Part shown: positions 39,178 through 45,656 of the stretch, one piece after another
Layout: each line of letters starts with the position of its first letter
Numbering within the stretch: the stretch's first letter is position 1
Assembly: GCF_000303155.1 (NCBI RefSeq)
Contig: NC_018719.1
Coordinates: 1,426,001 to 1,490,000, forward strand
Source of the DNA: Candidatus Nitrososphaera gargensis Ga9.2
Lineage (GTDB): Archaea; Thermoproteota; Nitrososphaeria; Nitrososphaerales; Nitrososphaeraceae
Reading direction: 5' to 3'
DNA length: 64,000 nt
Notes under the pieces: model-generated
What the model saw: the letters and a program-made list of their open reading frames with translations, nothing else
What the model was told of the DNA's origin: nothing
The model's database searches: none
Position numbers and translations under genes: made by a program

Positions 39178-40140
39178 TTGCCAAAACTTGTGGTCTCGGG
39201 GCTCAAGGCATATTATGCCACTGAAAGGGGCCCAGTCAGGGCAGTAGACGATGTTAACTTTTCCTTATCAGACAACGAATCGCTGGGCATCGTGGGCGAG
39301 TCGGCATGCGGTAAGAGCACACTTGGCGCGGCCCTCATGCGCTCTATGCAGCCGCCAGGCAAGATAGTCAGCGGTAGCATAGTTCTAGATGGTACCGACG
39401 TTTCAGAGATGCCCGCTTCAGAGTTCAACAGCAAGATAAGATGGAAAAAGATAGCAATGGTCTTCCAAGGCGCAATGAACGCACTTGACCCTGTCTACAC
39501 GATTGAAAGCCAGCTGCATGAGGTGCTCAGGGAGCACCGTTTTGAAGGCAATATGGAAGAAAAGATAGCAGAGTCGCTCCGCCAGGTGGGGCTTGATCTC
39601 TCGGTGGCAAAGCGCTACCCTCATGAGCTTTCTGGCGGCATGAAGCAGCGCGTCGTGATTGCAATGGCGCTTTTGCTCAAGCCGGACCTTTTGATAGCAG
39701 ACGAGCCGACCACCGCTCTTGACGTGCTGGTGCAGGCGCAGATAATAAACCTCCTCAAAAAGTTGCACAGGGAAAATGGCATAACTGTCATCCTGATAAC
39801 GCACGATCTTGCCCTTGTCTCGCAGATAGCAGACAAGATAGGCATAATGTACGCCGGCCAGCTGGTCGAGGTCGGCTCTACAAGCGACATTTACAAAAAC
39901 CCCCGGCACCCTTACACGCAGGCGCTCATAGCTGCAATGCCAAGGCTCAAGTCGAACGACAAAAAGATACACTTTGTCAACGGCAGCCCCCCGTCGTTGC
40001 TCAATCCACCTCATGGATGCCGGTTCTACGATCGCTGCCCACATGCCATGGATGCCTGCAAAAAAGATCCTCCGGAATTCAAGACAGACACAGGCTACGT
40101 GCGCTGCTGGCTGTATGAAAATAACAAGCGCGAGTCTTAA
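39178..40140 (+). CDS. Oligopeptide/dipeptide ABC transporter ATPase (OppD/DppD)
   Basis: 320 residues. Walker A GESACGKST near 40, Q-loop MVFQGAMNALDP, signature LSGGMKQRV, Walker B LLIADEP, H-loop ITHDLALV, and the OppD C-terminal extension with Cys (CRFYDRCPHAMDAC). TTG start. The permeases, second ATPase and binding protein are not in the window, so it looks detached from its operon. Confidence 0.9.
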   Translation: MPKLVVSGLKAYYATERGPVRAVDDVNFSLSDNESLGIVGESACGKSTLGAALMRSMQPPGKIVSGSIVLDGTDVSEMPASEFNSKIRWKKIAMVFQGAMNALDPVYTIESQLHEVLREHRFEGNMEEKIAESLRQVGLDLSVAKRYPHELSGGMKQRVVIAMALLLKPDLLIADEPTTALDVLVQAQIINLLKKLHRENGITVILITHDLALVSQIADKIGIMYAGQLVEVGSTSDIYKNPRHPYTQALIAAMPRLKSNDKKIHFVNGSPPSLLNPPHGCRFYDRCPHAMDACKKDPPEFKTDTGYVRCWLYENNKRES

Positions 40141-40223
40141 AAAGAGCAAATTCAGATGACAAAGTCTACGGCTTGCTGGTGAGAGAATATATACAATGAC
40201 GTTCACAGCAGCTCAGGCAACCA

Positions 40224-41150
40224 ATGGAAGAAAAGCCATCTCTGCCTCGGTCAAAATTGCCCTCGGAAAGAGCTGACGATACAGTTGTTAATATTTTGAG
40301 AGGCATAGTTGGAAGCAGGGCGTTTGACTTTACAATAACGAGTGTAATCCTTCTTCAGGCAGTTGCCCTTGCGCTAGAAGCTACGCCTGCCCTCTATTCT
40401 AACAATAATGGTGAAAGAACAAATGACGCTGCAAGATTGTTTGGCACAGTCCATACTGCAGTAGTCATGGTTTTCATTGTCGAGGCTGGAATGAGGTTAG
40501 GGGCATTATGTCCAAAGCCCCAAGATTACTTCAAAGATGGATGGAATAGTTTTGATTTTGCAGTGATAGTGCTTTCACTTATTCCAGTCACCGGTCCATT
40601 TGCAACCATTGCAAGGCTTATCAGGCTGCTGAGAGTCACCAGGCTAGTTACAAAATCCAAAGAGCTGCGGGCAATTGTATCCACTCTTGTTCGCTCTATT
40701 CCAAGCATCTTTAACATCTTGATTTTGCTTGGCATGCTGTTCTTCATTTATGCAATCATTGGATACCATCTGTTTAGCAATGTAGACCCGCAACGCTGGT
40801 CGTCATTTCTTGCCTCTCTTACAACGTTATTCCAAGTCATTACACTGGAGGGATGGATAGACATAACAGAACCGATAGTATCGCAGCTGGGCCCGCTGTA
40901 CTGGCTCTATTTTGCGACCTTTATTGTGATTGGCACTTTTATAATCATCAACCTGTTTATCTCAGTAATCGTCAGAAAATCTGAAGAAGCGTACAAACAG
41001 CTGCAGCTAGAATCTGGAACTCCTCTAACACAGCAAGAGATCGCAGAGGAGTTGAGGGAAATCCACAGGATCTTGGAGGAACTGGAGAGGAGAATAAGCC
41101 GGCAAGATGACGATTCAAAAAATGGCAGTGATAGAATCGATAAGAATTGA
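40224..41150 (+). CDS. Voltage-gated cation channel, NaChBac/BacNav-like
   Basis: A 308-residue single-domain six-helix channel that would work as a tetramer. S1 near 36-53, S4 voltage sensor with Arg131, 134, 137 and 140 spaced by three, pore loop TTLFQVITLEGWID with selectivity filter at 207-213, S6 near 228-250. A C-terminal coiled coil (EIAEELREIHRILEELERR, 272-290) follows, as in bacterial Nav channels. Asp213 at the outer filter and Glu-Gly-Trp are like calcium-channel filters, so Na or Ca is open. Rare in archaea. Confidence 0.88.
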   Translation: MEEKPSLPRSKLPSERADDTVVNILRGIVGSRAFDFTITSVILLQAVALALEATPALYSNNNGERTNDAARLFGTVHTAVVMVFIVEAGMRLGALCPKPQDYFKDGWNSFDFAVIVLSLIPVTGPFATIARLIRLLRVTRLVTKSKELRAIVSTLVRSIPSIFNILILLGMLFFIYAIIGYHLFSNVDPQRWSSFLASLTTLFQVITLEGWIDITEPIVSQLGPLYWLYFATFIVIGTFIIINLFISVIVRKSEEAYKQLQLESGTPLTQQEIAEELREIHRILEELERRISRQDDDSKNGSDRIDKN

Positions 41151-41154
41151 ACCG

Positions 41155-41439
41155 TCAAGTCATGGCGTTTTTCGGCACTTGGCGTCTCGCCTGTTGGAGA
41201 CATATGCTAACCTTAAAAAGAGCGGTTTTTGTCTCTATTAGCGGAGACGTTTTTCCTCCATCATAGCTGATATTAAAGCCCAGCTGGCGCAATGTTTCCA
41301 GCTTCTTCTTTATCCTATGTCTGGCATTTCTGGCAGCTCTGCCTTCCAGCTGAAGCGTGCCTGTCAGAAATGCCATCTCGTGCTTGGATAACATTGAGGA
41401 TGAGACTGGAAGTTGCGATAAAAGCATATGTAGCTGCAT
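41155..41439 (-). CDS. Small thaumarchaeal basic helical protein, possibly truncated
   Basis: Up to 94 residues (start may be the ATG at 41394). The core MLSKHEMAFLTGTLQLEGRA and ARHRIKKKLETLRQLGF looks like a conserved short helical family of these archaea. The last 30 residues are encoded by the palindrome/TATA repeat module (41175-41252), so the native C-terminus may have been lost. Function unknown. Confidence 0.5.
   Translation of the reverse strand: MQLHMLLSQLPVSSSMLSKHEMAFLTGTLQLEGRAARNARHRIKKKLETLRQLGFNISYDGGKTSPLIETKTALFKVSICLQQARRQVPKNAMT
41175..41252 (+). promoter_or_regulatory. Palindrome-TATA module, copy 1, with an inverted extra palindrome
   Basis: GCACTTGGCGTCTC opens the block. 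An 18-bp palindrome GTCTC-N8-GAGAC is at 41184-41201, followed by AACCTTAAAAAGAGCG (41209-41224), a TATA-like box. A second palindrome GTCTCTATTAGCGGAGAC lies at 41231-41248. The same block occurs ahead of the helicase at 42762-42809. Likely a regulated promoter with operators. Confidence 0.6.
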
Positions 41440-41737
41440 ACTATGAGCTTATTCCAGCGTTCATTGTGTGGTTCTGCTCAATCAGAATTGATCTAAAGCT
41501 ACGGCAACGGCTGACCGTTAGTCAGCAAGTATCAAGTTCAGCGATCAGATCTGGTTCTTTAGAGTAGTCGAGGTTTGAACTAGCAACCGGTATGATGTTC
41601 ATAGATATATAGGATATAATTTTTCTAAATATAAGCTATATATGGCTAAAGAAATGGTTGATTATATAATAATCAAACAACAAAAGCCGGAATATTGTGG
41701 GAAAATAAATAAATCTTTTATCACAAATTTTGTTGTG
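41440..41737. other. AT-rich spacer with a repeated 29-33 bp stretch
   Basis: No supported gene. 41496-41528 (AAGCTACGGCAACGG then CGTTAGTCAGCAA) recurs at 42149-42177 with small changes. The end, 41600-41737, is AT-rich promoter DNA of the next gene. Confidence 0.4.
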
Positions 41738-42025
41738 ATGAGAAAGGGTCTCTTGTTACTTGCAGTCAATATGGCAGCAGTGGGAACACTAGCATTAGCA
41801 GGTCTAGCTGTTTCAACAGCACATGCACAAGAATTTTTTGGATTTTTTGGCGCAGGTCCGAGTTGCCCTCCGGGAGAATGTCCTCTTCCTCCTGATGTAC
41901 CTGACGAACCAACATGTCCTCCTCTTCCTCCGGAGCTCTGCAAAAGGCCACCGCTTCCTCCAAGGTTACCGGAACCACCAGGATGTCCTCCTATCTGTCG
42001 ACCAGAGCCAGAGCCACCGTTTTGA
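41738..42025 (+). CDS. Cys/Pro-rich secreted peptide
   Basis: 95 residues from the ATG at 41738. A clear signal peptide (MRKGLLLLAVNMAAVG, then LALAGLAVSTAHAQ) is followed by a short mature region of about 60 residues built from CPP and PLPP units (GPSCPPGECPLPPDVPDE; CPPICRPEPEPPF), with six Cys and many Pro. Probably disulfide-linked outside the cell. No family recognised. Confidence 0.65.
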   Translation: MRKGLLLLAVNMAAVGTLALAGLAVSTAHAQEFFGFFGAGPSCPPGECPLPPDVPDEPTCPPLPPELCKRPPLPPRLPEPPGCPPICRPEPEPPF

Positions 42026-42223
42026 GTTTAACGGCAGCGGTAGCAGTCAAACCAGCAGAGTATGCGTGTCAGTCAAATAATCAAACAGATCATAGGTAAA
42101 GCAGTTATAGCCAATGCTGGAACTAATGCAGACTATGATCCAATGCTTAAGCTATGGCGACGGTCGTTAGTCAGCAATCAGCAGGTTAACAACAAATAAT
42201 GCTGCTCATCATGCACGAGTAGA

Positions 42224-42415
42224 TTGACGAACAAGATACCATGCAAACAGCATGGTACAGAGAAGATGATGATGGACCGCCTCTACAAGAGAGGCTCTAA
42301 GCAGAATGATCAACAATTTGAGGAAATAGGCGGGTACTGTGAGAAGTGCGGTTATATCGAATATGATAGTGCGCTTTTGAACCACAAAAGAGAGAAACGT
42401 TTGCAAGATTGTTAG
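42224..42415 (+). CDS. Small zinc-binding hypothetical protein
   Basis: 63 residues from a TTG. IPCKQHGTEKMMMDRLYKR and GGYCEKCGYIEYD give a Cx2H/CxxC zinc site. The same frame stays open for 29 more codons after its stop (42416-42520). No function known. Confidence 0.55.
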   Translation: MTNKIPCKQHGTEKMMMDRLYKRGSKQNDQQFEEIGGYCEKCGYIEYDSALLNHKREKRLQDC

Positions 42416-42761
42416 AATGATAGCCAAAGGCTCAACAACATCACGGCAGTGGAACGCTATGAGGTCGTTCTAGCTGAAACAGGTGTGGCTGGCCTGAAGC
42501 TGTATCGTGAAATGCAATAACTAAAGGCTTACACAATCAAGCATTTGGACTAAAGTTCAATGGCATCTATGTCTTAAAACAAATAGTTTGGGCGGACGTT
42601 CATCTGCGCTAATTATTGTTCTAACCTTTGGTATTTTGTTTTCACTGCTTTGCTCTTACAAGCCTAGCACAAAAGCCTAGAACTGTCACTGTCATAATCC
42701 CGAAATACTCCGCCCTATCCACAGAGATCAAGAACTTTCAAGGTTTACTAGAGCGGTTTCA
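42416..42761. other. Spacer, no clear gene
   Basis: The first 105 bases continue the open frame of the small zinc gene beyond its TAG stop (NITAVERYEVVLAETGVAGL is encoded), possibly an older 3' end. The remainder holds nothing supported. Confidence 0.35.
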
Positions 42762-42809
42762 GCACTTGGTGTCTCCGCTAATGGAGACACGCCAACCTTA
42801 AAAAGAGCG
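42762..42809 (+). promoter_or_regulatory. Palindrome-TATA module, copy 2 (helicase promoter)
   Basis: GCACTTGGTGTCTC, then the 18-bp palindrome GTCTCCGCTAATGGAGAC at 42771-42788, then AACCTTAAAAAGAGCG at 42794-42809. The TATA-like TTAAAAAG lies about 35 bases before the helicase start. It matches copy 1 at 41175-41224. Confidence 0.65.
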
Positions 42810-42833
42810 AGTTGTTGAGAAAGCCCTGTTTCA

Positions 42834-44570
42834 TTGACGACAACAACAATACTTGCGCATTTCCCATTCCCAAATATCCGAGAAAAGCAGAGAAGCGTTC
42901 TTGTTGATATCGAATTGGCCATCAAGTCTGGCTACAAGCACATATTCCTTGAAGCGCCCACAGGGTTTGGCAAGACGCCAGTAGCCATAACGCTTGCCCG
43001 CTACCTTGGAAGCTCGCACATTTGCACCGCGACAAAAGACCTGCAAACGCAATACCGGCGCGACTTTCCCTTTGTAGTGGAAGTAAAGGGAAGGGGCAAT
43101 TTTGCCTGCATAGTCAAGGAAGATATGGGTCTTGACGAGAGCTGCGACTATGGTCCCTGCGTCAAGGACGACGCGTACGACTGCACCTACAAGACCCGGC
43201 TGATGGACTACAGGGCAGAAGGCGAGGGCACCATGCACGAGCTGGTCAAGCTCGACTCCTTTGCAGAGCGCAAGTATATTGACAAGATGCGGAGCAAGTC
43301 AAAGCTGGTAGAGCTTGAATGGCGGCCGTGCCACTATTTCCATCAAAAGTGGATCGGGGCCAGATCCAGCCATACTGTATACAACTACCGCTACTTTCTA
43401 TCAGATGTGTTCTATGCCGGCTCGACGCAAAAAAGGAACCTGCTTGTGCTTGACGAGGCTCACCAGCTTGAATCAGAAGTAGGCGACTTTCGAAGTTTCA
43501 CGATTCGCAAGAACATGCTGCCATTTCTAAAGATGCAGATGCCTGATAGCAACGTAGACGACATTGAGACATGGCTTGACTTTTGCATCGAGCTAAAGGA
43601 AAAGTTGTTTGAATTTTCAGAGAAGGCTGAAAGGATAATTGAGCGGAGCAACCAAAAAGTGATGACAGAGCCGTTCACTGAGAAGAACCTGATCGATGCG
43701 CTGGAACGCGAAGCAACCCTGACTGCAATAATCGACGACATGAAGGCCGACAAGGATAATTGGATCGTATCAGGCGTACAGCGCGACAATGCAAACCAGC
43801 TATCAAGGGTGACGCTCATGCCGCTCGAAGTTTCGGGCTACTTTGATTCAATCCTTGACAAGGGCTCGGTATCGCTGTTCATGAGCGCCACTATCTTGAG
43901 CAAGGACTATCTTTGCAAAACAGCAGGGCTTGAGCCAGACAAGGTGAAGTTCATCAGGATAGAAGAATCAGACTTTCCAGTAAAGAATAGACTAATCCAT
44001 ATGAAGAATACTGCATGGCTTAATGCAAAAACAATGAATGAAAGTCTGCCCAAAATTGCAGAAGAAGTTAGAAAAATTATGTCCGATCCCAAGCACAAAA
44101 ACCAAAAGGGCATAATCCATACTACGTCTTATTCTCAGCTTCAGTTCATCAAAGAGTTCCTTAAGAATATCGACCATGAGAGTGCAGACAGACTGATAGA
44201 AACTGGATCAGGTCTTGATAGAAGCGAAGTGTTAGAGAGACACTATTCAAGCAAAAATCCGACAGTTCTGATATCCCCTTCGTTGCATCTTGGAGTAGAT
44301 CTGAAAGATGAATTTTCAAGGTTCCAGATAATAGTCAAGGTCCCTTACCCTGACCTTACCGACAAGAGAATCGCAAAAATGAAAGATAAGGACCCAAAGT
44401 GGTACACATGGAACACAGTCCTTCGCTTGGTGCAGGCTTATGGCAGGAGCGTCCGGAGCAAAGACGATTATGCCACGACCTACATCCTTGACAGCAGCAT
44501 TTCCTATCTGCTGAAAAACGCGCAGGACCTTGTGCCCAAGTGGTTCACCGAAGCAATAGTGCAATCATAG
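42834..44570 (+). CDS. XPD/Rad3-like DNA helicase with Fe-S cysteines
   Basis: 578-residue SF2 helicase of the XPD/DinG group. Walker A APTGFGKT at 41-48, DEAH at 207-210, and between them Cys92, 104, 109, 117 and 166, enough for the 4Fe-4S domain. Helicase domain 2 ends with RLVQAYGRSVRSKDDYATTY. TTG start. Repair or replication-restart role likely; the promoter carries an operator-like palindrome, hinting at regulation, perhaps by damage. Confidence 0.88.
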   Translation: MTTTTILAHFPFPNIREKQRSVLVDIELAIKSGYKHIFLEAPTGFGKTPVAITLARYLGSSHICTATKDLQTQYRRDFPFVVEVKGRGNFACIVKEDMGLDESCDYGPCVKDDAYDCTYKTRLMDYRAEGEGTMHELVKLDSFAERKYIDKMRSKSKLVELEWRPCHYFHQKWIGARSSHTVYNYRYFLSDVFYAGSTQKRNLLVLDEAHQLESEVGDFRSFTIRKNMLPFLKMQMPDSNVDDIETWLDFCIELKEKLFEFSEKAERIIERSNQKVMTEPFTEKNLIDALEREATLTAIIDDMKADKDNWIVSGVQRDNANQLSRVTLMPLEVSGYFDSILDKGSVSLFMSATILSKDYLCKTAGLEPDKVKFIRIEESDFPVKNRLIHMKNTAWLNAKTMNESLPKIAEEVRKIMSDPKHKNQKGIIHTTSYSQLQFIKEFLKNIDHESADRLIETGSGLDRSEVLERHYSSKNPTVLISPSLHLGVDLKDEFSRFQIIVKVPYPDLTDKRIAKMKDKDPKWYTWNTVLRLVQAYGRSVRSKDDYATTYILDSSISYLLKNAQDLVPKWFTEAIVQS

Positions 44571-44609: not shown

Positions 44610-45656
44610 TTGTCCGGCGACAAGGCAGTTGCCTCCGGCGAAGCCGCAGGCTATACGATATTTGGCATCAATTCAAGCATAGCGGCCACAATCATACTGA
44701 TTGTGCCCATAATTTACACGATTATTGTATACCCCGATTCATTCAGCCTCTCGTGGAATGAAGGAAGGGGCGGCTTTTTGTTCGCAATGGCGTTTATAGC
44801 GGCCGAGCTCGTAGGGCTGCGGTACCGAATAAGCAAGACGAGGTTCCTTATCGTAGTTGGGCTTGCCGCGCTGACAACCACCTATTTCGTCGCCCTTCCT
44901 TACGGGCTGAGCGAATACATCAAAAATGGAGCAACTTACTACAATGTCTCACTTGAGCTCAGCTGGATATGGATGTGGGACTTTGTCGTAATGTTCGTCT
45001 ATGTAACAAGCTCGCTCGTCATACTGTTTGGAAAAAAGTGGTACAAGATAGCGCCTGCCGGCGCCATTTACCTGGCAGGCAGCGCGGTGATACTGGCGCT
45101 TGACGCGTTCTTTCCGTTTGATTCGCTGGGCCCGCTCCAGTTCATAGTCCCGATATACCTGATAATTGATGAAGCGACAATCAATTTCATTGACGATTAC
45201 GTGACTAACGTAGGACCAGAAGACCCGAACCATCCGGCAAATCCGGTCAGAGCTACAGGAAATCTTTTAATTCTCAACGGCCTCCACGGGCCGTTTGCGC
45301 TGCAGGTGTTCTGGCCGTCTGCAGGCGTGCATAGCATGATAATCTACACCCTTGTGATGCTTGCGTTCCTGCTCAAGATGGACCTTCCGCTCAAGAGAAA
45401 GCTGATCTACTTTGCCATAGGCACGTTTGGCACAGTGGCCGTGAACGTGATCAGGATAACTTCGCTTTCGCTTTATGCTCTGGTGGTGACTACAAACGTG
45501 CGCGAATGGGAAGCTTTCCACTCTGTCGCCGGGGAGATAATGTTCTTACCGTGGCTTGGCATCTACCTTGGGATAGTAATGTTTGTCGAGAACAAGAGGA
45601 TGCGCAGGATGCAGGCAGAAAGCGCGACCCCTGCTAGTAGTCGCCCGAACTCATAA
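44610..45656 (+). CDS. Archaeosortase/exosortase-family protein (thaumarchaeal)
   Basis: 348 residues, about eight membrane helices. Active-site landmarks of exosortase relatives are in order: VFWPSAGVHSM (Ser237 where the nucleophile Cys is expected), VNVIRITSLS (Arg282) and FHSVAGEIMF (His304). It would cleave and modify PEFG-CTERM proteins such as the one at 30530. Ser in place of Cys may be a branch trait or a loss of activity. TTG start. Its 3' end overlaps dpo4 by 23 bases on the other strand. Confidence 0.82.
   Translation: MSGDKAVASGEAAGYTIFGINSSIAATIILIVPIIYTIIVYPDSFSLSWNEGRGGFLFAMAFIAAELVGLRYRISKTRFLIVVGLAALTTTYFVALPYGLSEYIKNGATYYNVSLELSWIWMWDFVVMFVYVTSSLVILFGKKWYKIAPAGAIYLAGSAVILALDAFFPFDSLGPLQFIVPIYLIIDEATINFIDDYVTNVGPEDPNHPANPVRATGNLLILNGLHGPFALQVFWPSAGVHSMIIYTLVMLAFLLKMDLPLKRKLIYFAIGTFGTVAVNVIRITSLSLYALVVTTNVREWEAFHSVAGEIMFLPWLGIYLGIVMFVENKRMRRMQAESATPASSRPNS

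Follow-up and report, generated by a model that had tools for sequence, protein, structure and literature searches.

In the literature searched, CavMr of Meiothermus ruber, a member of the AnclNav group, was the one native prokaryotic calcium channel that had been measured. This bacterial channel carries the filter TLEGWVD and is calcium selective, with a PCa/PNa of 218 ± 38, and a ratio of 215 was obtained when its filter was moved into the Na-selective channel NavPp of Plesiocystis pacifica (PMC7041947). The calcium determinants of CavMr are Gly4 and Val6, while Asp7 is dispensable, the PCa/PNa of the mutants being 7.7 for G4D, 11.9 for G4S, 40 for V6T and 144 for D7M (PMC7041947). By the "beacon" rule, one-domain channels with Gly at HFS+1, the position next after the ring glutamate, are calcium selective (PMC10120453). 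In animal Cavs, domains I and III obey the Gly4 rule too. The rest of the scaffold can affect selectivity as well, since the filter of NavPp resembles those of artificial Cavs, yet the channel is not calcium selective but Na selective with calcium block (PMC7041947).

The channel described here is encoded in the window, the 64,000-nucleotide stretch of Candidatus Nitrososphaera gargensis DNA that was analysed. It shares with CavMr the single 6TM domain and the filter pattern TLEG-W-[V/I]-D, with Gly at position 4 and an aliphatic residue at position 6. It differs in its archaeal host, in Ile6 and in pore loops without Cys, whereas the L6 loop of CavMr holds a disulfide (PMC10120453), the comparison with CavMr covering domain layout, filter and pore loops. 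With NavPp and the bacterial relatives of TLEDWTD type (Nitrospirota, Gamma- and Zetaproteobacteria, Acidobacteriota) it shares the architecture and the C-terminal helix, and the nearest bacterial sequences retrieved were 37 to 46% identical to it; the filters of this group, however, have Asp4 and Thr6. Among channels of solved structure, NaChBac (Bacillus halodurans BH1501) and NavAb/NavMs gave the best matches by Foldseek and by single-domain sequence; their filters are of the canonical TLESW type. The filter stretch FQVITLEGWVDI is shared, but for one residue, with domain I of eukaryotic T-type Cav3 (FQVITLEGW[I/V]DI against Cav3.2), a four-domain protein, and this likeness may be convergent.

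Ancestor-like BacNavs have already been reported "even in archaea" (PMC7041947), and a search of open-licence papers found no channel of this kind in ammonia-oxidizing archaea (AOA). The earlier note's remark that electrical or calcium signalling is hardly known in the group is therefore fair for AOA within the literature searched, but has to be read beside that report. The kind itself is known; the apparent novelty is that a conserved clade of AOA channels has the CavMr-type filter. With such a clade, the link between Gly4 and calcium selectivity could be tested on an independent set of proteins.

Anatomy of the archaeal channel

The coordinates of the features are collected in Table 1. The reading frame claimed for the channel was borne out to the nucleotide, being complete from an ATG start, and residues 32 to 260 matched Pfam Ion_trans (PF00520) at E=1.3e-49 (169 bits against a cut-off of 25). 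This profile spans S1 to S6, which places the protein in the voltage-gated ion channel superfamily, and no other Ion_trans gene was found in the 2,833,868-base genome. An NCBIfam search assigned no family. A chance match was excluded because 172 distinct PDB sequences matched at E<=1e-3 and because dN/dS was 0.04 to 0.17 in close orthologous pairs; from these same dN/dS values it was deduced that the protein is maintained under purifying selection. The host was confirmed as an ammonia oxidizer by an archaeal amoA in the genome (E=2.1e-120).

Table 1. Positions of the channel gene, its parts and its surroundings (window coordinates, except for genes at other loci, which are given by locus)
Feature	Position	Strand	Basis or remark
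Single-domain voltage-gated cation channel gene, CavMr/AnclNav-like, 308 aa	40224..41150	+	ORF, Pfam, PDB relatives, AF2/Foldseek
S4 voltage sensor, aa 128-144	40605..40655	+	R131, R134, R137, R140 at three-residue spacing
Selectivity filter TLEGWID, aa 207-213, between P1 and P2 helices	40842..40862	+	Sequence, AF2
C-terminal helix, aa 270-306, coiled-coil heptads	41031..41141	+	AF2 and heptad positions; expected tetramer holder
TATA-like sequence, ~28-40 nt 5' of ATG	40184..40196	+	Read from sequence
Lineage-specific insert of ~2.7 kb carrying the channel	40141..42833	.	Flanking ABC ATPase and helicase genes adjacent in five congeners
ABC ATPase gene, insert flank	39178..40140		
Helicase gene, insert flank	42834..44570		
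Thaumarchaeosortase gene	44610..45656		NCBIfam TIGR04297, E=3.9e-112
MASE3-histidine kinase-receiver genes	L044 3820-5949, L045 3970-5961, L157 9150-11279	Same as channel	

The AlphaFold2 (AF2) monomer (mean pLDDT 84, pore about 95) showed S1 to S6, a P1 helix at residues 195 to 206, a P2 helix at 211 to 222, a long S6 and the C-terminal helix. Foldseek ranked NaChBac first for this model (40% identity over 230 columns), followed by NavMs, NavAb and CavAb. The S4 sequence, TIARLIRLLRVTRLVTKSK, has K144 further along from the four arginines, of which R131, R134 and R137 were invariant among 54 relatives and R140 was kept in at least 90%. The heptad a/d positions of the C-terminal helix (I273, L277, I280, L284, L287, I291) are all hydrophobic from 273 to 291, and I273, I280 and L287 were invariant among AOA channels. 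The complete four-arginine S4, the filter with Glu209 and Asp213 correctly numbered (T207-L-E209-G210-W-I-D213) and the C-terminal coiled coil that the earlier note had described were thus all recovered. In the broad sense the protein is a BacNav: one 6TM domain with regularly spaced S4 arginines, a T-x-E/D-x-W filter between P1 and P2, and a C-terminal coiled coil, the last as seen in the predicted monomer helix and its heptads. It is not a canonical BacNav of the NavAb-like kind, as its filter is TLEGWID and the TLESWSM sequences did not fall in the group that includes the AOA clade. The TATA-like sequence may serve the channel as a promoter of its own, in which case the leader would be very short; upstream of the orthologues no such sequence was found at the matching place.

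The selectivity filter and ion preference

The archaeal filter TLEGWID differs from the CavMr filter TLEGWVD by a single residue, V to I at position 6, and G210 and I212 supply the Gly4 and the uncharged aliphatic residue 6 of a CavMr-type calcium filter. Gly4 together with Val or Ile6 was found in 21 of 23 AOA copies and in none of the 65 closest copies retrieved from bacteria. Among the latter, which are the nearest relatives reached by the search rather than a census, 54 have Asp4 (53 being of TLEDWTD type) and 10 have Gly4, all with Thr6. As the archaeal filters and those of the nearest bacterial relatives differ at two residues, they form a clean natural experiment.

From the filter, the channel likely prefers calcium. 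The earlier note had reached calcium through Glu209 plus Asp213, and this reasoning was half right: the conclusion is likely, but the D7M mutant of CavMr retains a PCa/PNa of 144 while G4D, G4S and V6T cut the ratio, which shifts the weight from Asp213 to Gly210 and Ile212. On these other grounds the case for calcium is stronger than the note had made it. The strongest alternative is that the voltage-gated channel passes Na+, or cations with little selectivity, like NavPp or NaChBac, the filter Gly having no calcium effect on the archaeal scaffold. NavPp, whose TLEDWTD filter predominates among the nearest bacterial relatives retrieved, is Na selective, and among single-domain channels of solved structure NaChBac comes closest. 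However, the archaeal residues at positions 4 and 6 are exactly those that separate CavMr from NavPp, they are conserved in nearly all AOA copies, and the transplanted CavMr filter turned NavPp calcium selective. This alternative was therefore judged unlikely.

The protein probably forms a homotetrameric, calcium-selective channel that opens on depolarization and is, like CavMr, of the ancestor-like BacNav type. The four subunits would join through the C-terminal coiled coil, and membrane depolarization would move S4 outward and open S6. Glu209 would form the high-field-strength ring, with Gly210 widening the entrance and Ile212 being uncharged, and the filter would pass Ca2+ over Na+ and K+.

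Other filters were observed as well. An orthologue from Nitrosocosmicus, a carrier of the channel, reads TLEGWVE. The deepest-branching AOA copy (L009/L151 8622-9437, genome G056) has the aberrant filter TLEEWSN, which is neither CavMr- nor NavPp-type. The Gly4 copies with Thr6 are Chloroflexota channels (TLEGWTD, TLDGWTN and similar; L048, L051, L055, L077, L078, L079, L084, L088, L097, L101), for which the V6T data of CavMr predict an intermediate calcium selectivity.

Phylogeny, distribution and the genomic insert

Relatives' loci were recovered with an alignment as the query; a single-protein query of genome contigs gave none. The best 80 named loci comprised 15 from AOA and 65 from bacteria (Nitrospirota, Gamma- and Zetaproteobacteria, Chloroflexota, Acidobacteriota). 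All AOA channels formed one clade on a long branch, with support of 95/100 in the first tree and 100/100 in the second, from which the plasmid outgroup rows L147 and L149, misframed in the first, were left out. The clade spans two families and groups with the TLEDWTD-type bacterial relatives, away from canonical TLESWSM sequences (100/97, in a tree without CavMr and NavPp). The earlier note's "bacterial-style" channel was accordingly upheld as a single-domain voltage-gated channel of Nav/Cav type in AOA, but the style is not simply bacterial, since the AOA channels form a clade of their own. On the tree, Gly4 needed at least three changes, and a tree constrained to join AOA with Chloroflexota was not rejected (AU p=0.28); Gly4 may thus have arisen either once for the two groups or separately in each.

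The distribution across AOA is patchy. Any match at E<=1e-3 was obtained in 29 of 400 sampled genomes of the class, several being weak and distant, and the convincing homologues in this sample lay in Nitrososphaeraceae and one Nitrosopumilaceae genus. By the alignment-based search the channel was present in 22 of 70 Nitrososphaeraceae genomes, in 3 of 18 from the genus of the window, and in a few genomes of Nitrosopumilaceae. Among 300 genomes of the phylum, no convincing match was found outside these two families.

In the window the channel lies on an insert flanked by genes for an ABC ATPase and a helicase, and these two genes directly adjoin in five congeners without the channel. The GC content of the insert is 43.6%, versus 49.5% for the window. 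Exactly three copies of the 12-mer CTTAAAAAGAGC are present in the 64 kb (40136, 41212 and 42797): one at either edge of the insert and one that separates the part with the channel from a further part of 1.6 kb. Congeners have a related TTAAAAA motif where the two flanking genes join. This arrangement fits insertion at that junction site with site duplication, or repeated recombination there. The sequence before the helicase gene (42765-42809) has a diverged copy at 41182-41224, and a thaumarchaeosortase gene adjoins the helicase gene.

Such an insert, missing in five congeners, and the patchy occurrence would suit a gene that came in laterally, has become dispensable and yields little or no functional channel in its host, as would the decayed copies found in genomes G070 and G259. 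On the other hand, the window ORF is intact with every functional residue present, close orthologous pairs bear the mark of purifying selection, and a well-supported clade over two families points to several lineages having kept the gene for a long time; dispensability is thus very improbable. As to the decayed copies themselves, G070 has two broken loci (L024/L132 and L031/L134-L137), one with the filter TLANWTD and the coiled-coil end missing and the other broken in several frames, while G259 (L025/L114-L116) has a frameshifted copy with the filter TLEGWVD.

Cellular context and proposed role

Two genes of the Na/Ca-exchanger family (PF01699) are present in the genome. Neither an EF-hand pair (PF13499) nor Cation_ATPase_C (PF00689) was found there, which leaves a Ca2+ sensor without a candidate. 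We hypothesize that brief changes in membrane voltage would give rise to Ca2+ transients, the two exchanger-type antiporters then removing the ion. AOA may in this way admit calcium upon a change in membrane voltage, and the clade would prompt one to ask whether nitrifiers abundant in soil signal by Ca2+ and voltage.

A role in motility or chemotaxis regardless of the ion, modelled on the voltage-gated Na+ channel of alkaliphilic Bacillus (Ito et al. 2004, as cited in PMC7041947) and on the archaellins of the window genome, has scarcely any probability, since archaellin (PF01917) was found in 9 and the channel in 22 of the 70 Nitrososphaeraceae genomes with only the window genome having both, so that channel carriers mostly lack archaellin and a motility role is unlikely to be shared by all, and since no motility neighbour is conserved. 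A more specific account, put forward tentatively as a possibility, is that of an old calcium-channel clade proper to AOA, in which the CavMr-type filter would have arisen separately from the bacterial ones and would serve voltage-driven Ca2+ signalling unrelated to motility. When 24 AOA loci were compared, no gene neighbour was common across genera. A single small group of Nitrososphaeraceae has a gene for a MASE3-histidine kinase-receiver protein 34 to 112 nt upstream of the channel gene, in the same orientation.
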